Origin: Candidatus Acidiferrales bacterium
GTDB lineage: Bacteria; Acidobacteriota; Terriglobia; Acidiferrales; UBA7541
Direction of reading: 5' to 3'
Assembly: GCA_025451835.1 (NCBI GenBank)
Contig: JANWJR010000111.1
Span: 1-40,893 of the forward strand
Length of the DNA stretch: 40,893 nucleotides
The notes beneath the pieces are model-generated. The model had not been told where the DNA came from. It did not search any database and saw only the letters and a list, made by a program, of their open reading frames with translations. The translations under genes and the position numbers were made by a program. Below, one piece after another: positions 3 to 23,279 of this stretch (position 1 is the first letter of the stretch; each line of letters opens with the position of its first letter).

Positions 3-710
3 GAAAAACAAGAACTTCTCGCCGGCGGTGTTGATGAGTCGCGCGTGATCGTTCGCCGCAACGGAGTCGAGATTCCTGAAACGCCGCCAGGTCGAGGCGA
101 GTTCCGACGACGCTGGAATATCGACGCCCAAACCAAACTAGTTTTGTTTCTCGGACGTCTGGTGTCGAAGAAGAGTCCCGATCTGTTGATCGAAGCATTC
201 GCGGCGTGGCGAAGGAATTCCGCCGATGCCCAGGAAGCCGCGCTCGTGCTGGCGGGCCCGGAGGAAGAAAACCATGGATATGTCAGGCAACTGAAGCAAC
301 TGGCTCGAAAGCTCAATATTGCAGAGAACGTCCGGATGGTTGGTCCGTTGTACGATGACGCAAAATGGCAGGCCTATCGCGACGCGGATGTTTTCGTGCT
401 TCCCTCGCAGAACGAGAACTTCGGGAATACAGCGGCGGAAGCCGCAGCGTGCGGCACACCCGTCATCGTAACGCACCGCTGCGGAATCGCGCCGTACGTG
501 GGAGGCGCGGGCCTGGTTATCAACCATGAAGTCTCCGAATTGGAGGCCGCGCTTAAGACAATCCTCGAAGATTCGGAGTTCCATGCCAGATGCCGCCTAG
601 GATGCACGGAAATGGCGGCTAGTCTTTCGTGGAACGGCCCGCTCGACGAAATGGAAGCGCTTTACCTTCGATGCGTTTCCGGGATTACCGCCGGCCGCGC
701 CGCTGGCTGA
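3..710 (+). CDS. GT4-family glycosyltransferase, C-terminal part (5' end outside window)
   Basis: The reading frame is already open at base 3 and continues without a start into the first in-window GTG/ATC codons, so the true start lies left of the window. What remains is the GT-B C-terminal nucleotide-sugar-binding domain (Glycos_transf_1): a VVRxNGVE-like segment near the start, a VLFLGRLVSKKSPDLLIEA stretch that opens the Rossmann half, and the retaining-GT4 E-x7-E signature in NENFGNTAAEAAACGTPV. Members transfer a sugar from a nucleotide donor onto a lipid-linked or polysaccharide acceptor at the cytoplasmic face. It is the first visible gene of a + strand run with two carbamoyltransferases, another GT4 enzyme and a polyprenyl-phosphate sugar transferase, so glycan assembly is the likely role. 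Donor and acceptor cannot be read from sequence. Confidence 0.88.
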   Translation, partial: EKQELLAGGVDESRVIVRRNGVEIPETPPGRGEFRRRWNIDAQTKLVLFLGRLVSKKSPDLLIEAFAAWRRNSADAQEAALVLAGPEEENHGYVRQLKQLARKLNIAENVRMVGPLYDDAKWQAYRDADVFVLPSQNENFGNTAAEAAACGTPVIVTHRCGIAPYVGGAGLVINHEVSELEAALKTILEDSEFHARCRLGCTEMAASLSWNGPLDEMEALYLRCVSGITAGRAAG

Positions 711-898
711 AGCGTCGATGACTCCGCGCCGGAAACACCGCCCCACAGACGATGTATTTTCGCGTTTCCGTGGGAGAATTGCCTGAGCGGCACACGACTG
801 GCGCGGCCTATTTGCCCTGCCTGGCGCAGAAACGCAGCGACTCCGTCGCATAAATGCCGACGGGAGCATCTGAAAGTAGCAAGACAAACGCGGCGCAT

Positions 899-2692
899 AT
901 GATCATCCTGGGCATCAACGCATACCACGCGAACGCATCGGCGGCGATTGTTGTCGATGGCCGCTTGATCGCCGCCGTCGAAGAGGAACGACTAAATCGC
1001 GTCAAGTACGCGGCAGGGCTTCCGGTGCGTGCGATTCAGTATTGCCTCGACGAGGCCGGGGCCAGGCTGCAGGATATCGATCACATCGCGATTCCGCGCG
1101 ATCCTCGGGCTCGATTGGGCACCAAGCTTCGCTACGCCATGCGCATGCCGCGATTCGCACTCGATCGCATCCGCGTGATGCGCCGCTTTGCGGGCATCGA
1201 CGAGGACTTGGCCGCCGCCTTCGAACTCGATTCGAAGAAAATTCGCGCACAAGTACATCGAATCGAGCATCACGCCGCGCACCTGGCCAGCGCTTATTTT
1301 GTGTCGCCCTTCGATCACGCCGCCGTGCTTTCCGCGGATGGGCTTGGCGATTTTGGAAGCTCGATGTGGGCGCTGGGTGAAGGTTCGCAAATGCGCGTGC
1401 TGGGGGACGTCCGGTTTCCACATTCACTCGGAATATATTATGCGGCTCTCACTCAATACATCGGCTTCTGGAAATTCGGCGATGAATACAAGGTGATGGG
1501 CTTGGCCGCTTATGGCCAGCCGGAATTCCTTGATGAATTTCACCGCATTGTGTACGCGGATGGGCCGCTTTCGTTCCGTCTCGGCCTGCAATATTTCGTT
1601 CACCAGAATCAAGGCCCTGAAATGACCTGGCGCGAATCCGGCCGCACGCCGGTCCTCGGAAGGCTATTTTCGGATTACCTCGAACAGCGCCTGGGTCCGG
1701 CGCGCAAGGCGGAAGAACCGATCGAGCAGCGTCACAAGAATATTGCAGCAAGCATGCAGGCTGCGCTCGAAGAAGTCCTGGCGAAACACTGGAACGCGCT
1801 GGCCGAAAAAACCCAGCAAAAGGCGCTGTGTCTTGCGGGCGGCGTGGCTTTTAATTGCGTTGCAAACGGAAAAATCTTCGAATGCTCGCCTTTCGAGCGC
1901 GTCTACGTTCAGCCTGCTGCTGGAGACGCAGGGTTGTCAGTGGGGGCAGCGTTCGCTGTCAACCATCAAGTCCTCGGACGGCCGCGCGAATTCGTCATGG
2001 AGCAAAGCGGGTGGGGACCCGGATTTTCGTCAGAGCAATTGCGTGGGGCGATCGAACGGTTTAACGGCCCGGGCGACGAAATTCAGATCTCCGAACTTGC
2101 CGAGGACGCGCTGGTGCAAGAGACAGCTCGGCATATTGCCGCGGGAAAAGTGACTGGCTGGTTTCAAGGCCGAGTGGAATGGGGTCCGCGTGCGCTTGGC
2201 CAGCGGAGTATTCTGGCCGACCCCCAGCGCGCCGAAATGAAGGAGGTTCTCAACCGACGGATTAAGCATCGCGAATTGTTCCGGCCGTTCGCGCCGTCGA
2301 TTCTTGAAGAAGCGGCGGGAGAATATTTTGAGAGGGCTCATCCCTCGCCTTTTATGACGTTCGCGTATCGCGTGCGCCCGGAGAAGCGCGACTTGATCCC
2401 TGCCGCAACGCATGTGGATGGCACGGCGCGGCTTCAAACAGTCAGCCGGCGCGCAACGCCGCTTTATTGGAAACTTTTGCGCGTATTTGGCGACCTGACG
2501 GGAGTGCCGGCCGTTGTGAACACGTCATTCAACGATAACGAGCCTATCGTCTGCCGCCCGGAAGAAGCCCTCGATTGCTTCCGGCGCACGCAGATGGATG
2601 TTTTGGTGATGGGAAATTTCATTTTGGAGAAGAAGCTGGCATTGGCATCTGGCATGGAAACTTTCGAAGGGGTTGTGAAGCGAACGAATTGA
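899..2692 (+). CDS. NodU/CmcH-type O-carbamoyltransferase (copy 1)
   Basis: Family members transfer a carbamoyl group from carbamoyl phosphate, via a carbamoyl-adenylate, to a hydroxyl on a sugar or antibiotic. The N-terminal Kae1/HSP70-like fold begins with MIILGINAYHANASAA and carries the metal-site HHxxH at about residues 124-128 and a DGLGDFGSS loop. CLAGGVAFN and VQPAAGDAG follow, then the C-terminal YrdC-like domain with EWGPRALGQRS near 429 and NTSFNDNEPIV. Length (597 aa) is normal. An in-frame ATG exists 45 bases upstream at 854, but family proteins begin at the MIILGIN-type strand, so 899 is preferred. Neither start has a convincing Shine-Dalgarno. It lies between two GT4 glycosyltransferase genes, so a glycan hydroxyl is the probable acceptor; this is inference. 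Confidence 0.9.
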   Translation: MIILGINAYHANASAAIVVDGRLIAAVEEERLNRVKYAAGLPVRAIQYCLDEAGARLQDIDHIAIPRDPRARLGTKLRYAMRMPRFALDRIRVMRRFAGIDEDLAAAFELDSKKIRAQVHRIEHHAAHLASAYFVSPFDHAAVLSADGLGDFGSSMWALGEGSQMRVLGDVRFPHSLGIYYAALTQYIGFWKFGDEYKVMGLAAYGQPEFLDEFHRIVYADGPLSFRLGLQYFVHQNQGPEMTWRESGRTPVLGRLFSDYLEQRLGPARKAEEPIEQRHKNIAASMQAALEEVLAKHWNALAEKTQQKALCLAGGVAFNCVANGKIFECSPFERVYVQPAAGDAGLSVGAAFAVNHQVLGRPREFVMEQSGWGPGFSSEQLRGAIERFNGPGDEIQISELAEDALVQETARHIAAGKVTGWFQGRVEWGPRALGQRSILADPQRAEMKEVLNRRIKHRELFRPFAPSILEEAAGEYFERAHPSPFMTFAYRVRPEKRDLIPAATHVDGTARLQTVSRRATPLYWKLLRVFGDLTGVPAVVNTSFNDNEPIVCRPEEALDCFRRTQMDVLVMGNFILEKKLALASGMETFEGVVKRTN

Positions 2693-2715
2693 ATTCGATT
2701 GCTTGATGCTTGCTG

Positions 2716-2747
2716 TGGCCGCCGCTTTGAGTGAGGTCCGGCGGTCA
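2716..2747 (+). other. Intercistronic hairpin before the WcaI-type gene
   Basis: TGGCCGCCG and CGGCGGTCA can pair as a 9-bp stem with one G-T wobble around a 14-nt loop, in the 75-bp gap between the first carbamoyltransferase and the next glycosyltransferase. No U-tract follows. Instead a GAGGG purine run starts right after the stem, about 15 nt before the next start codon. It may stabilise the upstream message or modulate initiation, or may be chance in GC-rich DNA. Confidence 0.35.
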
Positions 2748-2767
2748 GAGGGAAACTTGGATCGCTG

Positions 2768-4012
2768 ATGCACATTTTGCTGTTAAACGAGTACTATCCG
2801 CCCGACACATCCGCCACGGCGAAGATGGCGGTGCAGGTGGCGGAAACTCTTGCCCAACGCCATCGAGTGACCGTGGTCGCAGGCCGGCCATCCTACGATC
2901 CGGATGAGCGCTACCCTTACGCACTCCTGCGCCGCGACAAGCGCAACGGCGTGATGGTCGAACGGGTCGGCTCGACGGCGTACCCACGGCACGTGATGCG
3001 GCGGCGGGTTTCAAACTATTTATCGTATCTGGCGCTGGCAGTTCCCCGCGCGCTTACGATTCGCGCCGACGTTATTCTCGCGATGACGGACCCTCCCGTC
3101 GCCGGCATTGCGGGCGCGTTTGTTGCGCGGGTGTCGAAGCGCGCGTTCGTTTACAACATTCGCGACATGTATCCCGACATGGCTATTGGTGGCGATATTG
3201 TCCGGCCGAATCGCTGGGTGCGGCGCTGGGAGCGAATGCACCGGGCTGCCTTGGGCCAGGCGGCCCGTGTGATTGTTCTCGGCGACGATATGCGCGAGCG
3301 CATCCTGTCCAAAGGAGTGGCTCCGGAACGCGTTGTGGTTGTACGGGATGGAGCGACGATATCAGGTTCGATGCCAGACATGGGCGATCCCGTGGTGCAG
3401 GAAATTCGCAGCGGGATTCCGTTCGTGGCTTTGCACGCGGGTAATCTCGGCTTCTACGGAGCGTGGAGCACTCTTCTGAAGGCGGCGGAGATGCTCAGCA
3501 ACGAAAATGCCGGGATCGTGTTTATCGGGGATGGAGCAAACCGCGCCTCACTAGAAGCATCTGCATCGGCCTTGCCGAACGTGCGATTTCTGCCTTTTCG
3601 ACCAGTTGAACAGGTGCCGCACGCGATGATGGCAGGGGACATACACATCGTGACGGTGCGTCGTGGGCTCGAGGGGATCGTTGTGCCCAGCAAGCTCTAT
3701 TCGATCCTTGCCGCGGGCCGCCCAGTTCTTGTTGTGGCAGCCGCTGAGAGCGATGCAGCGCGTATCGTGCTGAAAGCGGGCTGCGGGATGGCAGCCGATC
3801 CCGACGATCCAGCTGCGGTTGCCGCGGCTATCCGAACCATGCGCGCCGATCCGGCCCGACTCTTGGAGATGGGCCGGCGCGCAAAAGAGTCCGCGCGCGG
3901 CTATGCTAGAGTAGATGAACTGAAGCGCTTCGTGGGGATCATGGAAGATGCGGTGCAGGAAAAGAACGGCACGGCGCCCTCTGGCATCGTAAGCGAACTT
4001 TCCCGGTCCTAA
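2768..4012 (+). CDS. GT4-family glycosyltransferase, WcaI/WbuB type
   Basis: A complete 414-residue GT-B enzyme. The N-terminal acceptor domain opens with MHILLLNEYYPPDTSATA, the typical beginning of the WcaI/WbuB group, which add fucose or N-acetylsugars during colanic acid and O-antigen synthesis. The C-terminal donor domain has HAGNLGFYGAW, IVFIGDGANR and the GLEGIVVPSKLYSILAAGRP segment, which aligns with the GT4 nucleotide-sugar site. There is no signal peptide; a hydrophobic patch near residues 85-120 is typical of membrane-associated GT-B enzymes. Its TAA is followed after two bases by the ATG of the polyprenyl-phosphate sugar transferase, so the two are almost certainly co-translated. 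The exact sugar cannot be inferred. The start has only a distant GAGGG. Confidence 0.88.
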   Translation: MHILLLNEYYPPDTSATAKMAVQVAETLAQRHRVTVVAGRPSYDPDERYPYALLRRDKRNGVMVERVGSTAYPRHVMRRRVSNYLSYLALAVPRALTIRADVILAMTDPPVAGIAGAFVARVSKRAFVYNIRDMYPDMAIGGDIVRPNRWVRRWERMHRAALGQAARVIVLGDDMRERILSKGVAPERVVVVRDGATISGSMPDMGDPVVQEIRSGIPFVALHAGNLGFYGAWSTLLKAAEMLSNENAGIVFIGDGANRASLEASASALPNVRFLPFRPVEQVPHAMMAGDIHIVTVRRGLEGIVVPSKLYSILAAGRPVLVVAAAESDAARIVLKAGCGMAADPDDPAAVAAAIRTMRADPARLLEMGRRAKESARGYARVDELKRFVGIMEDAVQEKNGTAPSGIVSELSRS

Positions 4013-4014
4013 AG

Positions 4015-5082
4015 ATGGCGAAAATTCCAACCAACTTAATCGCGTTCGCCGTGGCTTTGGTGGCCTCGCTGGCGCTCACGATCCCCGTCCGGCGCATGGC
4101 GCTTCGCTACGGGATGGTGGACCGACCGAATCCACGCAAGGTACACGTCAAGCCGATCCCGCTTCTTGGCGGAATCGCCATTTATCTCGGCTTCGTCCTG
4201 GCAATTCTACTCACGCTTCCAGCGGTGCCGGAGCAGCAGATTATTGGCATTCTCGCCGGGGCAACCCTCCTTGCGATCGTCGGGTTTCTCGACGACGGCG
4301 GTTTGCTGCATCACCAGGTAAAACTGTTCATCGGAATGCCGGCCGCCGCGATATTTTTGCTGACGTCCGGAATCCGGGCACAGCTTTTTTCGCCGTTCGT
4401 CCCCGGGGGCGCGGGCGCGGCTCTTGACGCGTGTTTCACGATCCTTTGGGTTGTGGGGATCACGGCGTCATTCAGCATCCTGGACCACATGGACGGCCTT
4501 TGCGCCGGCGTTGCGGCGATGGCTGCGTTGTTCTTCACGATCTCAGCAAGCATGAATGGCCAGACACTGGTTTGCACGCTGGCAGCGGCCACGCTCGGTG
4601 CTGCAGTGGGTTTTCTCCGCTGGAATTTCAATCCAGCGAGGATTTTCATGGGCGATGGCGGCGCGATGTTCCTCGGGTTTCTGATGGCGACCCTTGGCCT
4701 GAAAATTCGACCGATAAACATTGTGTTTCCGGTTACCTGGCTGGTGCCAGTGCTAATTCTCGGCGTTCCGATCTTCGATACGACGCTGGTCACGATTTCC
4801 CGCGCGCGGCGCGGCTTGCTTCCCTTTACGTCACCAGGAAAAGATCACACGGCCCACCGGCTGTCGAACCTGGGATTGGGACAGCGGGGCGCCGTTCTGG
4901 CGATGTATTTTTTCGGTGGTGTTTCAGGCGGGCTCGCACTTCTCGCTCCCTGGTTATCGGCAGCGACAGCGTATGCGCTGGCCGCAATGCTCGTGGCATG
5001 CGTCCTCCTGGCAGTTTTTTTCCTTGAGAGCGTACCGTACGAACGCCAAGGGAAGCTGCATAAGCCTTCGACGGCACCATGA
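4015..5082 (+). CDS. WecA/MraY-family polyprenyl-phosphate sugar-1-phosphate transferase
   Basis: This integral membrane enzyme (355 aa, about ten hydrophobic segments) would move a sugar-1-phosphate, usually GlcNAc-1-P or a related aminosugar, from UDP-sugar onto a polyprenyl phosphate, the first step of lipid-linked glycan synthesis. Family motifs in order: DRPNPRKVH (36-44), the DD pair at 93-94, SILDHMDGL (154-162), FNPARIFMGDGG (205-216), VPIFDTTLV and the cytoplasmic GKDHTAHRL loop. The second motif differs from the usual NLIDGLDGL: Asn is Ser and the first Gly is His, while both Asp residues are kept. GDSG is GDGG. The DHxxHRL loop belongs to the WecA-like rather than the peptidoglycan MraY branch, so it is unlikely to be the essential mraY. 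It is two bases downstream of a WcaI-type glycosyltransferase. Confidence 0.9.
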   Translation: MAKIPTNLIAFAVALVASLALTIPVRRMALRYGMVDRPNPRKVHVKPIPLLGGIAIYLGFVLAILLTLPAVPEQQIIGILAGATLLAIVGFLDDGGLLHHQVKLFIGMPAAAIFLLTSGIRAQLFSPFVPGGAGAALDACFTILWVVGITASFSILDHMDGLCAGVAAMAALFFTISASMNGQTLVCTLAAATLGAAVGFLRWNFNPARIFMGDGGAMFLGFLMATLGLKIRPINIVFPVTWLVPVLILGVPIFDTTLVTISRARRGLLPFTSPGKDHTAHRLSNLGLGQRGAVLAMYFFGGVSGGLALLAPWLSAATAYALAAMLVACVLLAVFFLESVPYERQGKLHKPSTAP

Positions 5083-5117
5083 AGGGCTTCTAAGACCGCA
5101 CTTCTCTTTGGGGATAG

Positions 5118-5144
5118 GTGTGTCTAGTGTGTCTACGTTATACT
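5118..5144 (+). promoter_or_regulatory. Tandem GTGTGTCTA repeat next to a TATACT -10-like box
   Basis: The 201-bp gap before the flavoprotein gene contains two perfect, directly adjacent copies of the 9-mer GTGTGTCTA (5118-5135), followed three bases later by TATACT (5139-5144). Direct repeats overlapping the -35 zone of a promoter are a common activator site layout. No good -35 hexamer is present at the normal distance, which would fit an activator-dependent promoter. Predicted from pattern only; the start codon is about 140 bp downstream. Confidence 0.35.
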
Positions 5145-5283
5145 TCCGTGAGAGTTTGTCCGTGCTGAATGCGCCAGGCGGCATTCGGCGCGCACAAAGA
5201 GATGCTTCAGTACAGCGGCCTACTGAGAGCCGCATTGCGTTTTGATTCTAATTTTCCCATGAGGCCGAAGCTTACGGACGACC

Positions 5284-6492
5284 ATGGCGCACGAACAGAG
5301 CAACCCCGAGAACGCATCTCTGCCCACATCCCGCTTCGATGCCGGGAACGTGGCGGTGATAGGCGGATCGGCCGCCGGGCTGTTTACAGCTTCGTTGCTC
5401 GCGCGGCAGGGACGACAGGTGCGCGTGTTCGAACGGATGGAATCGCTCGAGCCGGCGGAGCGCACGCTGATCGTCACGCACCGGATGCGGCATTTGCTGG
5501 GCCGCAGGGCCGAAGGTTGCATCGTCAATGAAATTCGCCGCTTCGAGCTTTTTACCGATGGTCGGTCCGCGACAGTCCCCCTGAAAAATCCCGACTTGAT
5601 TATTGAACGCCGCGCTTTGATTCAAGGCCTGGCGGACGAAGCCGTCCGTGCCGGGGCTTCGATTGAGAGCGGACGCCGTTTTCATGCGATGCATCCAAAC
5701 GACCGAGGAGTGGTTCTCGAAATCGAGCGATGCAGCGACGGACTGCGCGAGGAAGTTCACGCGGGAACCGTGGTGGGGGGCGACGGAGCGGCGAGCCGCG
5801 TGGCGCGGGCCGCGGGGTGGCCGCCACTTGCGACGGTACCTCTGGTGCAGGCGATCGTGCGGCTGCCAAGGGACATGTCGCCCGATACGGCGCGGGTCTG
5901 GTTCGTTCCGCAGGACACTCCCTATTTTTACTGGCTCATCCCGGAATCGCCCACGCGCGGGGCGCTTGGCTTGATCGGCGTGAGAGGATCCCAGACGCGA
6001 CGAGCTTTGGAGCAGTTTCTCGAAAAAAAACGACTAGAACCGATTGAATTTCAGGGTGCGCGCATTCCGGTGTACACGCGATGGATTCCGGTCCGGCGCA
6101 ACGTGGGAAGAGGCGCTGTCTATCTGGTTGGCGACGCAGCCGCACAGGTGAAGGTCAGCACGGTCGGGGGAATCGTGACGGGCTTGCGAGGCGCTCTGGG
6201 CGTCGCGCAGGCAATCCTCAATGGCGGGGCAAGCCACGAATTGCAGAGGCTGCGGCGCGAACTTGATGTTCACCTGTTGCTTCGCAAGTCGATGCACGAT
6301 TTCGAACAAGCCGATTACAGTTATTTGGTGGACCTGCTCAACGACCCTACAAAGCAGTCGCTTGCCGAGTATTCGCGGGATGAAGCCTGGAAGATCCTCT
6401 GGCGCGTCTTCCTTCGGCAGCCCCGGCTGGTGCTGCTGGGAATACGCGGGCTGCTAACCCGCGGCCGCCCGCTCTCGCAGCCGCACGGTTGA
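5284..6492 (+). CDS. FAD-dependent oxidoreductase, geranylgeranyl-reductase/FixC-like
   Basis: A 402-residue flavoprotein of the p-hydroxybenzoate-hydroxylase fold. The FAD-binding dinucleotide motif is VIGGSAAG at 25-32 (a GGGPAG variant with Ser in the middle). An acidic-end FERME follows near 60, a VGGDGAASR middle motif near 163, and the second FAD motif YLVGDAAAQVKVSTVGGI near 280. The GDAA...GGI pattern and the C-terminal 'lid' are typical of geranylgeranyl reductases and related halogenase/monooxygenases. These act on isoprenoid double bonds or hydroxylate small molecules. It has no signal peptide. It sits between the polyprenyl-phosphate sugar transferase and a second carbamoyltransferase, so reduction of the lipid carrier's isoprene chain is one reading and modification of a sugar or aglycone another; neither can be settled here. 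The start lacks a strong Shine-Dalgarno. Confidence 0.82.
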   Translation: MAHEQSNPENASLPTSRFDAGNVAVIGGSAAGLFTASLLARQGRQVRVFERMESLEPAERTLIVTHRMRHLLGRRAEGCIVNEIRRFELFTDGRSATVPLKNPDLIIERRALIQGLADEAVRAGASIESGRRFHAMHPNDRGVVLEIERCSDGLREEVHAGTVVGGDGAASRVARAAGWPPLATVPLVQAIVRLPRDMSPDTARVWFVPQDTPYFYWLIPESPTRGALGLIGVRGSQTRRALEQFLEKKRLEPIEFQGARIPVYTRWIPVRRNVGRGAVYLVGDAAAQVKVSTVGGIVTGLRGALGVAQAILNGGASHELQRLRRELDVHLLLRKSMHDFEQADYSYLVDLLNDPTKQSLAEYSRDEAWKILWRVFLRQPRLVLLGIRGLLTRGRPLSQPHG

Positions 6493-6569
6493 GCGGAGCT
6501 GGCGCGAATCATTCCGTGAAATGCAGAACTACTTGATGCTGCACTCTTCCGTGATACAAACCAGCTAGC

Positions 6570-8285
6570 ATGTACATTTTGGGCCTCTCTTCGATGGAGC
6601 ACGATCCGGCAGCCGCTCTCCTGAACGAGCGCGGCATAGTCGCTGCGATCGAGGAGGGGAAACTCGCGCGTTCCAGGCGGGCCGAAGGGATACCTCGCTT
6701 GGCGATTCAGTATTGCCTGAACCGCGCAGGAATCGATTGGCGCGCCATCGATCGAATCGCCATCGCCAGCCGTCCTGCAATCGCATGGCGCCGGCAGACG
6801 CTGTTCCGGGCGCGCCTTGCGCCGCTAAGTCCGCTTTCGAGCGGCTACTTCCTAAACAAGGCGTTCGGTGAGTTCGGGCGCGAGCTGAACAATTTCCGCA
6901 TCGTGCGCTCACTGGCCGGCGCGCCCGAAGGGCGAGTTGCAGGCTACGATCATCATCTGTGCCACGCCGGGAGCGCCTATTTCGCGTCCGGGTTCGAGCG
7001 AGCGTTGATCGTCACGCTCGACGAACGGGGTGACGGACGCGCGGGCTTTGCGGGTATCGCTCATGGCAATGATATTCGCGAATTTGTAACGGTTCGCTTC
7101 CCTCACTCACTCGCGTGGGCTTACACACAGTTCACAAAGCTGCTTGGTTTTCGGCCGCATGCCGACGAGCATAAGACGCAATGGCTAAGCCTTGCAGGGG
7201 AACCGGTGTTTACCGATTTTTTTCTGAGCATTCTTCGGCGCCATCCACAGGGACCACCGCATCTCAACGGACAGTATTTTCGGCACGAGTTCGCGGGCCA
7301 GCTCTCTTTCGCCGAAAAGTTTTACGCGCGGCTGGAAATCCCTCGCGGGTCCGAAACGACGCTGGGCAATCCGCTGAAGGCCGATATCGCAAGTAGCGTG
7401 CAAAAGGCTTGCGCGACCGTGGTCTGCGACTGGTTGGAAACGCTGCGCAAGCGGACGGCGGAACGCTATTTGTGTCTGGCCGGCGGGCTTTTCTTGAATC
7501 CGCTATTGGTCTCCGCGATTGAGAAGCACACAGGTTTCGACCGGATTTTCGTTCAGCCTGCGGCCGGCAACGAGGGTACCGCCCTGGGAGCTGCATGGCT
7601 CGCGTGGCACAAAAGGCCTGGGCGTCCGCGATTCGAACGCATGGCAAACGCGTACTTAGGGCCCGGCTATCCCAACGAAGCCATCAAACAAACGCTCGAC
7701 AACTGCAAAGCCGCGTACCGCTGGTGCGATTCAGAAGATCGCAAAATCGAAGAAGCGGTACGGCTGCTGCAGGCTGGAAAGATTGTTGCATGGTATCAAG
7801 GCGCGACGGAATTTGGACCGCGAGCCCTGGGGAATCGCAGCCTGCTTGCATCGCCGTGGGCGCCCTACGTGAAAGAAAATTTGAACGACTACGTGAAACA
7901 CCGCGAGTCGTTTCGTCCGTTTGCGCTCTCAATGCCGGCCGAAGATTGCGCACGCTATTTCGAGTGTTCGGCGAATGGCCGATTCATGACTACGATGGCA
8001 ACTGCAAATGAAGACGGCCGGAAGTTGCTCGATGTCTTGCCGCCGGGCTTCCTGTTGCCCGGAAACCTGGTGCGGCTGCACGTGGTGGGAGCGGACGACA
8101 ATCCTTTGCTCTGGAAGCTCTTGAAGCGATCCGGCGAAAATGCACCCGCGCCAATGCTCATCAATACGTCGTTCAATCTTTTCGGCGAACCACTGGTCGT
8201 CAGTCCGCGGGACGCGGTTCGAAGCTACTACTGCTCCGGGACCGACGCTCTGATTGCGGGCAGCTTCTTGCTCACCAAGCATTGA
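6570..8285 (+). CDS. NodU/CmcH-type O-carbamoyltransferase (copy 2, divergent)
   Basis: This is the second carbamoyltransferase of the cluster (571 aa). It starts MYILGLSSMEHDPAAAL, has HHLCH at 128-132, CLAGGLFLN, VQPAAGNEG, EFGPRALGNRS near 415-424 and NTSFNLFGEP near the end, so both the Kae1-like and YrdC-like domains are complete. It differs from copy 1: the usual DGxGD loop after the first domain's histidines reads TLDERGDGRAG, and no long similarity beyond family motifs is visible, so this is not a recent duplication. Different acceptors are likely. A TTGATG-N16-TACAAA pair ends nine bases before the ATG and no Shine-Dalgarno is visible, so a very short or absent leader is possible. 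Its stop overlaps the start of the DUF218 gene. Confidence 0.9.
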   Translation: MYILGLSSMEHDPAAALLNERGIVAAIEEGKLARSRRAEGIPRLAIQYCLNRAGIDWRAIDRIAIASRPAIAWRRQTLFRARLAPLSPLSSGYFLNKAFGEFGRELNNFRIVRSLAGAPEGRVAGYDHHLCHAGSAYFASGFERALIVTLDERGDGRAGFAGIAHGNDIREFVTVRFPHSLAWAYTQFTKLLGFRPHADEHKTQWLSLAGEPVFTDFFLSILRRHPQGPPHLNGQYFRHEFAGQLSFAEKFYARLEIPRGSETTLGNPLKADIASSVQKACATVVCDWLETLRKRTAERYLCLAGGLFLNPLLVSAIEKHTGFDRIFVQPAAGNEGTALGAAWLAWHKRPGRPRFERMANAYLGPGYPNEAIKQTLDNCKAAYRWCDSEDRKIEEAVRLLQAGKIVAWYQGATEFGPRALGNRSLLASPWAPYVKENLNDYVKHRESFRPFALSMPAEDCARYFECSANGRFMTTMATANEDGRKLLDVLPPGFLLPGNLVRLHVVGADDNPLLWKLLKRSGENAPAPMLINTSFNLFGEPLVVSPRDAVRSYYCSGTDALIAGSFLLTKH

Positions 8286-8962
8286 TGAGAACGGCGGACA
8301 ATTCACGCGTAGGCAGTGGAACGTCCCGGCGGCGCCACCTCGCCGTTACGATGCTCCTTCTTGCGCTGGTGGTTCTCTCTTTGATCTCAGCCTTCCGGGA
8401 GGCCGGCGTGTGGCTGGTGCGAGAAGATCCTCTCGCACGCGCCGATGTAATTTTCGTCTTGAGCGGAAGCATGCCATATCGCGCGGAAGAAGCGGCCAAC
8501 ATTTATCGCAAGGGGTACGCGCCCGAAATCTGGGTAAGCCACCCGCTAGGCCCCTCCGAGGATCTTCAGGAACTCGGAATCCACTACGTCGGTGAAGAAG
8601 AGTACGACCGCGAAGTTTTGATCCATGAAGGAGTTTCGGAATCAGCGGTTCGCGTTCTAGCGGATGAAATCGTCGACACCGAACAAGAGATGCAAGCGGC
8701 GTCGAAAGAAATGAGGGCCACAGGCAAGAGAAGGATCATCATCGTCACGTCGCCGGAGCATTCGCGGCGAGTCCGAGCGCTGTGGAGAAAGCTCGGCTTG
8801 AAAGATTCAATGGCGATCATTCGGGCGGCGCCCGAAGATCCGTTTGATGCGGTCTATTGGTGGCGCGACACGCGGGACGCCCTTGCGGTGGTGCGGGAAT
8901 ACCTGGGACTGATGAATGTCTGGGCTGGATTGCCGGTGCGGCCGCGTTCGGGTGGGGTCTGA
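8285..8962 (+). CDS. DUF218/YdcF-like membrane-anchored protein
   Basis: The ATG at 8285 overlaps the preceding TGA as TGATG, a classic translational-coupling arrangement; a TTG directly before it is the less likely start. The 225-residue product has one N-terminal membrane segment (about residues 17-36). A DUF218 domain follows: ARADVIFVLSGSMPYRAEEAANIY, then RVLADEIVDTEQEM, and KRRIIIVTSPEHSRRVRALW. YdcF/SanA/ElyC proteins are linked to envelope integrity and to lipid-linked precursor metabolism in other bacteria, but their reaction is not firmly known. Coupling to a carbamoyltransferase suggests it acts in the same glycan pathway, probably at the periplasmic face of the inner membrane. It ends the + strand cluster: the next gene is convergent, 13 bp away. 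Confidence 0.82.
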   Translation: MRTADNSRVGSGTSRRRHLAVTMLLLALVVLSLISAFREAGVWLVREDPLARADVIFVLSGSMPYRAEEAANIYRKGYAPEIWVSHPLGPSEDLQELGIHYVGEEEYDREVLIHEGVSESAVRVLADEIVDTEQEMQAASKEMRATGKRRIIIVTSPEHSRRVRALWRKLGLKDSMAIIRAAPEDPFDAVYWWRDTRDALAVVREYLGLMNVWAGLPVRPRSGGV

Positions 8963-8975
8963 ATGCCATTCGGGG

Positions 8976-9845
8976 TTAAACCTTTGCGTTGTTCAGCCAC
9001 ACTGGCTCGGGTTCGAGGATTTTGCAGCGGTCCCAATCTGCTTTTTTCCTCAGGTCGTGCAGCCAGAGCTGCCACTCGATCCCGGTATCCTGATCGTCGT
9101 GAGAATAAAATGCACGCCAGCAGCCACCCCCACCGGGGGACGGCTGTCCGCCATTTTCAGAGCTCTCCAACGGATCGTGACTCCGAAACTCCGCCAGCAG
9201 ATCCACGTCGAGATGCACCCGGAGAAATGTAGTGGCATCGGCGTCGGAACCGCCGGGGCAGCCGTTATTGGTATTCGCGGCGTTTACTTTCGAACAGCAA
9301 TAACATCCCCGGAGTTCGATCGAGTTTTTCGAGAGAATGAGTTCGAGGGAGGGCGGACGTTCGATGCGCTCGCCGCCAGCGAGCCGCAATTCCCAAAGAG
9401 TCAGTGGATCCGCGGCGGCATCGGAATCCGCGTAAAAATCCAGCGTTCGCGTTTGACGCAGTGCCGCCTGACTCTCTGGCAGAATCTCCGTGGTCGTCGC
9501 AACCGTATGGCTGCGCCAGCGTTCGAGTTTTACCGACGCGACGAAACTGCCGTAGGATTGAATGAATTTTCGCTGTTCGCTGGTGATGGCGAGGGTGTGT
9601 TGCCAGAAGCGCTCGCTGATGCGGAATGAGAATGTAAAGACTTGCTCAAGCGGTACCGGAAAGGACTCCCCCAGGCGGCGCTTGAAATCGGGATTGCCAA
9701 TTTCTTCCAGATCCCGGATGCGATCCGCAAGCCGCCGGATGGTCCAGGACTGCTTTCGCAATACCTGCTGCCAATGGCTCGCCAGGCCTGCAAAGACAAA
9801 AACAACGATGATGGAGATTCCCATTGCCGGCAGGAGAATGTCCAT
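8976..9845 (-). CDS. Unknown membrane-anchored, cysteine-rich protein
   Basis: I do not recognise a family. The 289-residue product begins with one hydrophobic segment (about residues 5-23), then a basic, helical stretch (WTIRRLADRIRDLEEIG) and a soluble C-terminal part. The C-terminal half carries a CYCC cluster, NNGCPGG, a GGGGC turn and DRCK, six cysteines in roughly 100 residues, which could bind metal or form disulfides. A GGAGAG Shine-Dalgarno lies about 9 nt upstream of the ATG. A 237-codon open frame on the opposite strand (8916-9629) overlaps it but lacks a ribosome site and sensible composition, so the minus strand is chosen. It separates the glycan cluster from the UDP-sugar genes, and nothing in the context fixes a role. 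Confidence 0.6.
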   Translation of the reverse strand: MDILLPAMGISIIVVFVFAGLASHWQQVLRKQSWTIRRLADRIRDLEEIGNPDFKRRLGESFPVPLEQVFTFSFRISERFWQHTLAITSEQRKFIQSYGSFVASVKLERWRSHTVATTTEILPESQAALRQTRTLDFYADSDAAADPLTLWELRLAGGERIERPPSLELILSKNSIELRGCYCCSKVNAANTNNGCPGGSDADATTFLRVHLDVDLLAEFRSHDPLESSENGGQPSPGGGGCWRAFYSHDDQDTGIEWQLWLHDLRKKADWDRCKILEPEPVWLNNAKV

Positions 9846-10153: not shown

Positions 10154-11506
10154 TTGAAAATTTCTGTGATTGGGGCCGGTTATGTCGGCCTGGTGACGGG
10201 CGGATGTCTGGCTGCAATCGGCCACGAAGTAATTTGCACCGACAACGACGCAGCAAAAATCAAGACTCTTGAAGCGGGCCGGCTCCCCATCTACGAGCCG
10301 GGACTGGACTCCGTGGTGGCAACCGCTCGCAAAGAGGGGCGCCTGACTTTTACCGCCAATCCGGCGGGCGCCGTGGCAGCCGGAGACGCAATCTTTATTT
10401 GCGTCGGCACGCCGCCTCTTCCCAACGGCGACGCCGACTTGAGCGCCATTGACCGGGTGGCGCGCACGATCGCCACGGAAGCGCGCTCGACCAAGTTGGT
10501 GATCGAAAAGAGCACAGTGCCGGCACAAACGGGACAGGAGCTGCAGCGTGCACTTTCGGTCTACGGCCGCAAAAGCAATTTATCGTTCCGCGTTGCGTCG
10601 AACCCTGAATTCCTTCGCGAAGGAACAGCCGTCGAAGATTTCCTGCACCCCGACAGGATCGTGGTTGGTGTGGAGGATGAAGCGTCCGAGCGCCAGCTCC
10701 ACGAAATATACCGGCCCGTTCTGGAGCGCAAATTCCATTGCTTCGCCCACGGCGGAAAGTGCGCGGACGGGCCGCTGCCCGAATGGCTGGTAACCACGAT
10801 CAACAGCGCCGAGCTAATCAAGCATGCTTCGAACTCATTTCTGGCGCTGAAAATTTCCTACGCCAACATGGTTTCGGATCTCGCGGAACGCCTCGGGGCG
10901 AACGTCGACGAAGTGCTCCACGCCGTGGGAACGGACCCTCGCATCGGCAAGAGTTTCTTCCGCGCGGGAATTGGATTTGGAGGCTTCTGCCTGCCGAAAG
11001 ATTTGCAGGCGTTCGTACACCTCGCGGAGCGGTCGGGCGTGGATTTTTCGATGTTGAAGGAAGCAGAAGAAATAAATCACGGGCGCATTCACCATTTTAT
11101 GGAAAAAATCAAGCGCGCCCTCTGGGTGGTGAAGGAAAAGCAAATCGGCGTGTTAGGCCTGGCTTTCAAGCCCAATACGGACGACATTCGATTCTCGCCG
11201 GCAATCGATTTGATTTCCGCGCTGGTGTCGGAAGGAGCGCACGTTCGCGCCTACGATCCTGAAGCAATGGAGCGCGCGCGTGCTTCGTTTCCGCATCTCA
11301 AATACGCCGAATCCGCCTACGACGCCGCCGACAACGCCGAAGCGCTGGTGATCGCCACGGAATGGGATCAGTTCCGGCATCTCGATTGGGACCGCGTCCG
11401 GGAATCAATGGCCCGACCGCTGATTCTCGATGGGCGCAACCTGCTTTCCGCACGTGAAATGAAAGCCTACGGATTCGAATACTATTCGGTGGGCCGTCCA
11501 GACTGA
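10154..11506 (+). CDS. ugd: UDP-glucose 6-dehydrogenase
   Basis: The enzyme oxidises UDP-glucose to UDP-glucuronate with two NAD+ in the cytoplasm. The 450-residue product has the N-terminal Rossmann motif GAGYVGLVTGG, FICVGTPP and EKSTVPAQTG. It then has NPEFLREGTAVEDFLHPDR, the catalytic-cysteine motif GFGGFCLPKDL with Cys279, and the C-terminal LAFKPNTDDIR/ATEWDQF segments. The start is TTG: the protein must begin MKISVIGAGYVG, the codon before AAA is TTG, and a GGGAG ribosome site lies eight bases upstream. No ATG fits. It is convergent with a UDP-glucuronate decarboxylase gene, so the two probably supply UDP-GlcA and UDP-xylose for the nearby glycan cluster or for LPS. Confidence 0.95.
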   Translation: MKISVIGAGYVGLVTGGCLAAIGHEVICTDNDAAKIKTLEAGRLPIYEPGLDSVVATARKEGRLTFTANPAGAVAAGDAIFICVGTPPLPNGDADLSAIDRVARTIATEARSTKLVIEKSTVPAQTGQELQRALSVYGRKSNLSFRVASNPEFLREGTAVEDFLHPDRIVVGVEDEASERQLHEIYRPVLERKFHCFAHGGKCADGPLPEWLVTTINSAELIKHASNSFLALKISYANMVSDLAERLGANVDEVLHAVGTDPRIGKSFFRAGIGFGGFCLPKDLQAFVHLAERSGVDFSMLKEAEEINHGRIHHFMEKIKRALWVVKEKQIGVLGLAFKPNTDDIRFSPAIDLISALVSEGAHVRAYDPEAMERARASFPHLKYAESAYDAADNAEALVIATEWDQFRHLDWDRVRESMARPLILDGRNLLSAREMKAYGFEYYSVGRPD

Positions 11507-11567: not shown

Positions 11568-12518
11568 CTAGCGCGCCTGGTTGGATTCAGCAAGCTTTTT
11601 GCGGAAGTAATCATAGGTACGGCGTAAGCCTTCCGCGAGATCTACCTGCGGCTCCCAATGCAGGATGCGCTTTGCTTTGCTGATATCGGGACAGCGCTGT
11701 TTGGGATCGTCCTGCGGCAAAGGATGAAACACTATGGGAACATTCGCGCCTACAAGTGCGCGCACACGTTCGGCAAATTCATGGATGGTGATCTCATGCG
11801 GATTTCCGATGTTCACGGGATCGTGTTCGTTCGATTCAAATAAGCGGTAGATTCCATCGAGCAAATCCGACACGTAACAAAAGCTCCTGGTCTGGCTACC
11901 GTCGCCATACACCGTGATTGGTTCCCCGGCCAGTGCCTGGTACAGGAAATTCGGCAGCGCCCGGCCGTCGTTCAAGCGCATGCGGGGACCGTAGGTATTG
12001 AATATGCGGACGATGCGCGTATCGAGACCGTGGTAGCGGTGATAGGCCATCGTCAAGGCTTCGGAAAAACGCTTGGCCTCGTCATAGACGCCGCGCGGCC
12101 CCACTTGATTTACATGACCCCAGTAGCTTTCCGGCTGCGGGCTCACGTCTGGGTCTCCGTAACATTCCGACGTCGAAGCCATGAAAAACTTTGCTTTCTT
12201 GGCAAGCGCCAGACCCAGGCAGTTGTGCGTTCCCAACGAACCAACCTTGAGCGTTTGAATCGGCAATTTCAAGTAATCCGGCGGGCTTGCAGGCGAGGCG
12301 AAATGGAAGACGGCATCCACCGCACCGGGAACTTCGATGTGTTTTGTTACATCGTGACGCTTGAATTCGAACCGAGGATTCTCGCGCAGGTGGGCGATGT
12401 TGGCTTCCGAACCCGTGGCGAGATTATCCAGACACAAAATGCCCCAGCCTTTCTCAATCATTAGGTCGCAGAGATGGGAGCCAAGGAATCCCGCACCGCC
12501 GGTAATTACCGCTCGCAA
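11568..12518 (-). CDS. UDP-glucuronate decarboxylase (UDP-xylose synthase), extended SDR family
   Basis: Extended short-chain dehydrogenase of 316 residues. The N-terminal NAD+ site is [12 protein letters not shown], the active-site pair is Y145-x3-K149 in GVYDEAKR, and STSE supplies the catalytic Ser/Thr region. [14 protein letters not shown] and [15 protein letters not shown] are distinctive of the UXS/UDP-glucuronate decarboxylase group rather than GalE. That reaction converts UDP-glucuronate to UDP-xylose and CO2. The ugd gene, making the substrate, is convergent and 61 bp away, which supports the assignment. The short intervening gap shows no clear terminator. A dTDP-glucose 4,6-dehydratase is the main alternative but the RMRLNDGR motif argues against it. 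Confidence 0.9.
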
Positions 12519-21806: not shown

Positions 21807-23279
21807 ATGAACTCAGCAGAAAAGCCTCGCGTGCGTTTCGCGCCGTCGCCAACCGGCTATCTCCACGTGGGGGGCGCGCGCACCGCCCTGTTTAACTGGT
21901 TGTTTGCACGCCGTAAGGGTGGCACGCTGCTTTTGCGGATCGAGGATACGGACGTGGAGCGTAACAAACCCGAACTAGTCGATGGAATCCTCGAAGGCTT
22001 GAAGTGGCTAGGCGTGAAATGGGACGAGGGTCCTTACTTTCAATCAAAACGCCTCGATATGTATCGCGAGGCAGCCGAGCGCTTGCTCGCAAGCGGCGCT
22101 GGGTTTGCCTGTTACTGCAAGGGAGCCTCTTATGCAGGTCCCGATACCGGCGAAAAACCGGGAGTCGAAGGTGATGACGAGGACAAAGTTGCGAAAGCGC
22201 CTGCCTGCCCGTGCCGCGACCTCACCGAAATCGAGCGAACTGCCAAAGAGAAAGAAGGTATCGCTCGAGCCATCCGCTTCCGGGCGCCGCGAAGCGGCAC
22301 TACAAAATTTGAGGACGCGGTATTCGGCTCGCGCGAGGTGCAAAACCCAGACATCGAGGACTTCGTCCTACTGCGATCGAACGGCTTGCCGACCTATCAG
22401 CTCAGCGTGGTCGTGGACGATATCGACATGCGCATCACACACATCATCCGCGGCGCGGACCACCTCTCCAATACCCCGAAGCAAGTGCTGATCTACCAGG
22501 CTCTCGGCGCGACGCCGCCAATTTTCGCACACGTCCCGCTCATTTTGGGGCCCGACCGCACACGCCTGTCGAAGCGCCATGGCGCCACGAGCGTAGGATC
22601 GTACGCCGATGAAGGGTTTCTGCCCGAGGCCTTCCGCAATTTCCTGGCGCTGCTCGGCTGGTCGCCCGGCGACGATTCCGAGTATATGCGCACGGCGGAA
22701 CTGATCGAACGGTTCGCGCTATCCGGAGTCAGCCGGACGAATGCCATTTTCGACCACGCCAAGCTCGAATGGTTCAATACTCAATATCTGCAGAAACCTG
22801 CGATCGAGGAATTGCTGCCATACGTTGAAGCAGAGCTGAAACGCGCGGGACTCTGGGATGGATCGCAGGCGAGCCACGATCGCGCCTGGTTCGCACATGC
22901 CGTGGATTTGATTCGGCCACGCACCCGCCTGCTCGGCGATTTTTCCGGCTGGGCGCGTGCATTCTTCTCCGACGACTTTGACTACGACGTCGAAGCACGC
23001 GAAAAGTTCTGGAAAGATGAGCGTCTGGCAGGATTACTGGGAAAGCTGGCCGATTCTCTCGGCGCGCTCGATCATTGGAATCATGACGCCTGCGATGCGG
23101 CGTTGCGCAATCTGGCAGCGGCCGAGGGAGTGAAAGCCGGCTTGCTAATAAATGCAACGCGTGTGGCGATTGTAGGCCGCGCCGTAGCGCCACCGCTTTT
23201 CGAAACGATGATCATCCTCGGCAAAGATCGCGTCGTTTCCCGCCTGCGCCGCGCGCTACCCATTCTTTCCGCCCAGTAA
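21807..23279 (+). CDS. gltX: Glutamyl-tRNA synthetase
   Basis: Class I aminoacyl-tRNA synthetase, 490 residues, charging tRNA-Glu. The HIGH-type motif is SPTGYLHVGG near residues 13-22 and the KMSKS-type motif is RLSKRHG with Lys256. The catalytic domain also has RIEDTDVERN and IRGADHLSNTPKQ. Cysteines CYC near 104 and CPC near 130 flank a charged insert and resemble the zinc-binding knuckle found in some GltX. The C-terminal part is helical, as in the tRNA anticodon-binding domain. A GAGGAAGGAA ribosome site lies about nine bases upstream. Whether it is discriminating or also charges tRNA-Gln cannot be told from the sequence alone; the amidase downstream at 26041 is not clearly a GatA. Confidence 0.97.
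   Translation: MNSAEKPRVRFAPSPTGYLHVGGARTALFNWLFARRKGGTLLLRIEDTDVERNKPELVDGILEGLKWLGVKWDEGPYFQSKRLDMYREAAERLLASGAGFACYCKGASYAGPDTGEKPGVEGDDEDKVAKAPACPCRDLTEIERTAKEKEGIARAIRFRAPRSGTTKFEDAVFGSREVQNPDIEDFVLLRSNGLPTYQLSVVVDDIDMRITHIIRGADHLSNTPKQVLIYQALGATPPIFAHVPLILGPDRTRLSKRHGATSVGSYADEGFLPEAFRNFLALLGWSPGDDSEYMRTAELIERFALSGVSRTNAIFDHAKLEWFNTQYLQKPAIEELLPYVEAELKRAGLWDGSQASHDRAWFAHAVDLIRPRTRLLGDFSGWARAFFSDDFDYDVEAREKFWKDERLAGLLGKLADSLGALDHWNHDACDAALRNLAAAEGVKAGLLINATRVAIVGRAVAPPLFETMIILGKDRVVSRLRRALPILSAQ

Follow-up and report, generated by a model that had tools for sequence, protein, structure and literature searches.

Among bacterial surface glycans, carbamoylation is known chiefly from LPS cores and Nod factors. 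The class III O-carbamoyltransferases include TobZ, GdmN, NovN, VtdB and the NodU group, and combine a Kae1-like with a YrdC-like domain. In GdmN, iron is coordinated by H133, H137, D156 and D333, and the G157 backbone contributes to the oxyanion hole (PMC9633730); the tetrad of the YrdC-like domain is KxR...SxN (PMC9654439). For the LPS core of Pseudomonas, WapO has been described as a putative carbamoyltransferase (PMC8005017). In Haloferax, a geranylgeranyl reductase (GGR) is required for saturated dolichol phosphate (PMC10821996).

Here we describe a glycan locus of a soil acidobacterium that encodes a canonical carbamoyltransferase (CT1), a second protein of the same fold with a replaced metal ligand (CT2), a WecA-like sugar-phosphate transferase and a GGR-like flavoprotein. 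No paper on this type of locus in acidobacteria was found in the openly accessible literature.

Results

Gene content and conservation of the locus

The window, i.e. the whole stretch of 40,893 nucleotides that was analyzed, comes from the left end of contig C111 in a MAG (2.22 Mb, 164 contigs, 79.5% complete). The features are summarized in Table 1. All seven genes listed in an earlier sequence-only reading were found at the given positions and in the given order, and both tight joints named there were confirmed: the genes of the WcaI-like and the WecA-like enzymes are separated by a 2-bp gap, and the ATG of the DUF218 gene at 8285 overlaps the stop codon of CT2 (TGATG). The start of CT1 was set to position 899 by orthologue alignment, instead of 854. 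The cluster runs further to the right than described there, up to the UGD and UXS-like genes.

Table 1. Features of the glycan locus in the window (positions in nucleotides).
Feature	Position	Strand	Evidence
GT4-family glycosyltransferase, C-terminal part, cut by contig start	3..710	+	PF00534 122.6 bits
CT1, canonical class III O-carbamoyltransferase (Kae1-like + YrdC-like domains)	899..2692	+	Carbam_trans_N (PF02543) 212.7 bits, cut-off 24; Carbam_trans_C (PF16861) 238 bits, cut-off 27
WcaI-like GT4 glycosyltransferase	2768..4012	+	NF007640 156 bits, below cut-off 276
WecA/MraY-family polyprenyl-phosphate sugar-1-phosphate transferase	4015..5082	+	PF00953 102 bits; TIGR02380 106.6 bits
Geranylgeranyl-reductase-like FAD protein (flavoprotein)	5284..6492	+	TIGR02032 106.4 bits; fold 3oz2
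CT2, carbamoyltransferase-fold protein, N-type clade	6570..8285	+	Carbam_trans_N (PF02543) 147.3 bits, Carbam_trans_C 149.8 bits, both well above cut-off; TobZ/VtdB fold; N334
DUF218 (SanA/ElyC/YdcF-type) protein	8285..8962	+	PF02698 55.3 bits
Conserved protein, family without assignment, beside DUF218/UGD in relatives	8976..9845	-	11-member family in compared loci
UDP-glucose/NDP-sugar dehydrogenase (UGD)	10154..11506	+	TIGR03026 442 bits, above cut-off; after the block in several relatives
NDP-sugar epimerase/decarboxylase (UXS-like SDR)	11568..12518	-	PF16363 170 bits; same position in several relatives

The WecA-like protein belongs to the WecA/MraY superfamily (PF00953, cut-off 27 bits) and stays below the cut-off of the ECA WecA model TIGR02380 (326 bits). 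The 289-aa product of the minus-strand gene at 8976–9845 had no match in Pfam or NCBIfam; this protein is retained next to DUF218 and UGD in several relatives. Scans for promoters and terminators gave no signal clearly exceeding that of shuffled sequence.

Orthologues occur in the same order in many relatives, which rules out a spurious reading of the gene set. The consensus order, from which individual loci may miss single genes, is GT4s - AsnB - CT1 - WcaI - NAD epimerase - WecA - flavoprotein - (CT2) - (DUF218) - UGD - UXS, and upstream of it the relatives carry genes for Wza-like, Wzc, epimerase, Wzm/Wzt, GT2, HpsL-like and Wzy_C proteins. The block forms the downstream portion of a cluster of the exopolysaccharide/O-antigen type that is whole in relatives, with Wza, Wzc, Wzy_C, Wzm/Wzt and many glycosyltransferases. 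The window has neither AsnB beside CT1 nor the NAD epimerase, both of which are flanking genes in most relatives. Several relatives encode a weak transglutaminase-like protein upstream of AsnB (e.g., L043:11918-12868, minus strand).

In relatives, the export and chain-length genes (Wza/Wzc, Wzm/Wzt) are joined to the block. In the window's own genome, homologues of these export genes lie on contig C12, physically separate from C111 in the assembly; as C12 terminates within Wzt, the locus is probably split across the two contigs. The comparison across relatives thereby bore out the assignment to a lipid-linked glycan locus whose genes are kept together, and the suspicion that the cut left edge hides further genes.

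Co-occurrence within the family

Presence and distance of the genes were determined in 89 genomes of one family, with counts uncorrected for shared ancestry or genome incompleteness. CT1 was present in 69 genomes, the flavoprotein in 75, WecA in 71 and CT2 in 19, the last count including a contig-edge fragment from G002. The flavoprotein was found in every CT1-positive genome (69/69) and every WecA-positive genome (71/71), WecA in 68 of the 69 CT1-positive genomes, and both CT1 and the flavoprotein were absent from 14 of the 89. The flavoprotein had been seen as a mere companion of the glycan genes; it accompanies CT1 in all CT1-bearing genomes.

CT1 and WecA were at most 9 kb apart in 53 of 68 genomes and on different contigs in the remaining 15. 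For WecA and the flavoprotein, the distance was at most 4.5 kb in 51 of 71 (different contigs in 19). In 17 of the 19 CT2-positive genomes, CT2 and the flavoprotein were no more than 4.5 kb apart, and CT2 usually came directly after the flavoprotein. CT2 is an accessory gene of the family loci (19/89); 52 of the 69 CT1-positive genomes lack it. Two genomes (G004 and G018) retained the flavoprotein with CT1 and WecA both missing, and in some others (e.g., G001, G009, and G014) it is on a separate contig; it may therefore serve another pathway.

Active-site residues of CT1 and CT2

CT1 keeps all four iron ligands (H, H, D, D, corresponding to GdmN H133, H137, D156, and D333), the YrdC tetrad K, R, S, N (KxR...SxN), as well as H495 and Q503 (GdmN numbering). 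Neither CT1 nor CT2 reached the cut-off of the NodU equivalog NF041651 (182.8 and 93.6 bits; cut-off 1000). Judged by the residues that CT1 keeps, carbamoylation of the glycan by this enzyme is likely, and the support for a lipid-linked glycan with a carbamoyl group as its predicted product is good.

CT1 and CT2 had been called unrelated-looking. They are homologous: both contain Carbam_trans_N and Carbam_trans_C, and they share 35% identity. In a tree of 146 sequences they fall into deeply separate clades. A recent tandem duplication was ruled out by the tree and the identity. The predicted fold of CT2 remains of the TobZ/GdmN type, the model showing the two-domain Kae1-YrdC architecture with a Z-score of 41.5 to 3vez/3ver/7xb6 (TobZ/VtdB; 532–557 residues, rmsd 2.3–2.7).

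The iron-ligand set of CT2 is H, H, D, N, with N334 at the position of GdmN D333, instead of the four-ligand HHDD set. Among the 87 sequences of the CT2-like group, this position is N in 84, D in 2 and I in 1; it is D in 59/59 other homologues. The exceptions within the N-type clade are Ile in L104 and Asp in L108 and L132. The Asn is therefore not fixed in the clade. Further changes of the group against the 59 homologues are MG208-209 to QW, N313 to V, H495 to L, Q503 to H and, for the most part, G157 to E or R (GdmN numbering); several of the replaced residues are at least 90% conserved among the other homologues compared. The tetrad (K443, R445, S534, and N536 in CT2), both His ligands and D156 are essentially invariant (n = 87).

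Because the KxR/SxN adenylation tetrad is retained, CT2 probably still forms an acyl adenylate. Remodelled residues at the transfer site and in the YrdC-like domain make it likely that CT2 departs from CT1 in donor, metal or acceptor. The sparse occurrence of CT2 in the family, together with the replaced metal ligand and conserved residues, suggests that its transferred group, its donor or its acceptor may be a different one. The glycan had been predicted to carry two carbamoyl groups: the one assigned to CT1 stands on canonical residues, but the second is not established, given the replaced metal ligand in the clade of CT2 and the presence of CT2 in only 19 of 89 family genomes. We regard the remodelled CT2 clade as the more unusual part of the locus.

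Phylogeny of the CT2-like group

The CT2-like group consists of clade A (26 sequences, support 0.974) and clade B (60 sequences, support 1.0), which are sisters joined at 0.997; the member from G043 branches outside both with low support. The window's CT2 belongs to clade A, together with relatives whose genes are found in glycan loci beside those for sulfotransferase, WecG and epimerase; close relatives of CT2 outside the family likewise lie in such loci. The records of the closest CT2 relatives are Acidobacteria and Terriglobia MAGs, one of them named Candidatus Acidiferrales, which confirms that the window is acidobacterial.

Neighbourhoods of clade B were taken from a fetched, largely Bryobacterales sample, separate from the genomes used for the presence count, which belong to the order of G046, itself from the same class as the window. 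Among 54 loci of this sample with sufficient upstream sequence, at least 42 had the clade-B gene directly after gltX or glnS, and seven further loci showed gltX at this place; the commonest junction was a 4-base overlap (13 loci). Loci L125–L182 are mostly directly downstream of gltX or gltX-glnS (e.g., L179:10001-11572 and L157:10001-11575). One of them, L181, comes from a record titled Bordetella parapertussis, which looks like a mislabelled MAG. The protein was present in 79 of 81 genomes of G046's order (Bryobacterales-type), with one match each at an E-value of 1e-90 or better. The basal members L123 and L155 lie downstream of a dTDP-sugar epimerase-like gene; a sugar context may therefore be the older one. 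No paper that links a NodU-like protein to gltX was among the titles and abstracts listed from the openly accessible literature.

A function of the clade-B protein as TsaD substitute in t6A synthesis was ruled out, as 30 of the 31 genomes compared from that order have a TsaD that exceeds its cut-off. In G130 (three contigs, 95% complete), TsaD was below cut-off (best E-value 3.5e-5). The glutamyl-tRNA synthetase gene of the window (21807-23279) is followed by a called gene on the opposite strand, and not by a carbamoyltransferase-like gene.

The flavoprotein

The best fold match of the flavoprotein was 3oz2, an archaeal GGR-type reductase (Z 33.4, rmsd 2.9, 347 aligned residues), clear of the next group, with a model of moderate confidence (pLDDT 78.2). 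The score for TIGR02032 lies below the cut-off of 158.8 bits. The segment TPYFYWLIP is invariant in 12 aligned orthologues and agrees with the GGR cavity motif PxxYxWxFP strictly only at W and the final P. Saturation of the polyprenyl carrier appears to be the most likely role, at lower strength than the other steps; because it misses the family cut-off and the strict motif, we keep it as a working hypothesis.

Discussion

From gene content, gene order, co-occurrence, residue changes and predicted folds, we infer the reactions of an envelope-polysaccharide cluster in which CT1 carbamoylates the glycan, the flavoprotein acts on the carrier and CT2 is an optional extra transferase; as an explanation of the whole locus, we consider this fairly probable. 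The WecA-like enzyme would begin the glycan on polyprenyl phosphate and the GT4/GT2 enzymes would lengthen it. CT1 would convert carbamoyl phosphate and ATP to carbamoyl-AMP and then carbamoylate a sugar hydroxyl; the product would be exported or polymerised by the Wzm/Wzt, Wza/Wzc and Wzy_C proteins encoded upstream. The flavoprotein would partially saturate the isoprenoid carrier, as is typical for its closest fold relatives, and CT2 would add a further acyl or carbamoyl group to this glycan or to a related one.

For CT2, three other readings have to be weighed. It has the complete class III fold, both His ligands, D156 and the KxR/SxN tetrad, it lies near CT1 in glycan loci, and a canonical homologue is also close to the CT2-like genes in L110 and L111. 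CT1 and CT2 could thus both be ordinary O-carbamoyltransferases for two positions of one glycan, the Asn still binding the metal and the other changes tuning the acceptor only. We consider this unlikely, as the changes are clade-wide and affect both half-sites (D333N, G157E/R, MG to QW, N313V, H495L, and Q503H), and most CT1-positive genomes lack CT2. An inactive or regulatory paralogue, for instance a partner subunit of CT1 like the pseudo-enzymes of other Kae1-type systems, would fit the loss of the metal-ligand Asp and the oxyanion-hole Gly and the position next to CT1 clusters. It is improbable, since the near-invariance of the tetrad and the other three metal ligands in 87 sequences argues for retained catalysis, and many CT2-like genes lack a canonical homologue within the flanks that were fetched. 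Tentatively, and with the balance leaning against it, CT2 and its acidobacterial relatives might constitute an enzyme family of their own that is built on the carbamoyltransferase fold and uses a different donor or acceptor; this family would act on envelope glycans in one branch and, in the sister branch, be a single-copy core gene of the Bryobacterales-type order, coupled to gltX/glnS in the largely Bryobacterales sample.

The flavoprotein could instead be a sugar or small-molecule oxidoreductase or a halogenase-like enzyme, to the exclusion of a polyprenol reductase. Halogenases have the motif WxWxIP, which F-Y-W-L-I-P of the flavoprotein resembles as closely as it does YxWxFP of GGR; halogenase folds reach a Z-score of about 27 against the model, and the protein can persist without WecA or CT1. 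Against this stand the nearest fold, which is clearly the archaeal GGR-type reductase (Z 33.4 versus at most 29.5), and the best NCBIfam model, which is the GGR family, although below cut-off. This alternative is a real contender, if somewhat short of an even chance.

With carrier saturation as the working hypothesis, the strict association of CT1 and the flavoprotein prompts one to ask if, in some bacteria, the polyprenyl carrier of one glycan is saturated in the way that archaea saturate dolichol. The locus offers a conserved, testable case of predicted carbamoylation in acidobacteria, which are known mostly from metagenomes, and the replacement of a catalytic metal ligand across a clade is a natural experiment on substrate change in the ancient YrdC-Kae1 chemistry.

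Comparison with known systems

With exopolysaccharide clusters of the Wza/Wzc (XrtA/EPS) or Wzm/Wzt type, the locus as it stands in relatives shares a Wza-like export protein, a Wzc-type autokinase, an AsnB amidotransferase, GT4 enzymes and WecA-type initiation. It differs by the addition of CT1, the flavoprotein and the optional CT2, and no exosortase turned up among those genes of the relatives that were scanned. WapO resembles it in the predicted carbamoylation of an envelope glycan and in a carbamoyltransferase gene amid glycosyltransferases; compared by description, WapO concerns the heptose of an LPS core and a single carbamoyltransferase, whereas the present cluster is a long one of the exopolysaccharide/O-antigen type.

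The archaeal geranylgeranyl reductases 3oz2 and 3atq share the fold of the flavoprotein (Z 33.4 and 29.5), but the identity is about 15–17% and T-P-Y-F-Y-W-L-I-P stands in place of PxxYxWxFP. Compared with the class III O-carbamoyltransferases, CT1 has both Pfam domains, the iron ligands and KxR/SxN; CT2 shares the two-domain fold over 532–557 residues and KxR/SxN, but its clade has changed D333 to N, G157 to E/R, MG208-209 to QW, H495 to L and Q503 to H. The genes of CT1 and CT2 lie in a polysaccharide cluster, in contrast to the antibiotic or Nod-factor synthesis served by the known enzymes.
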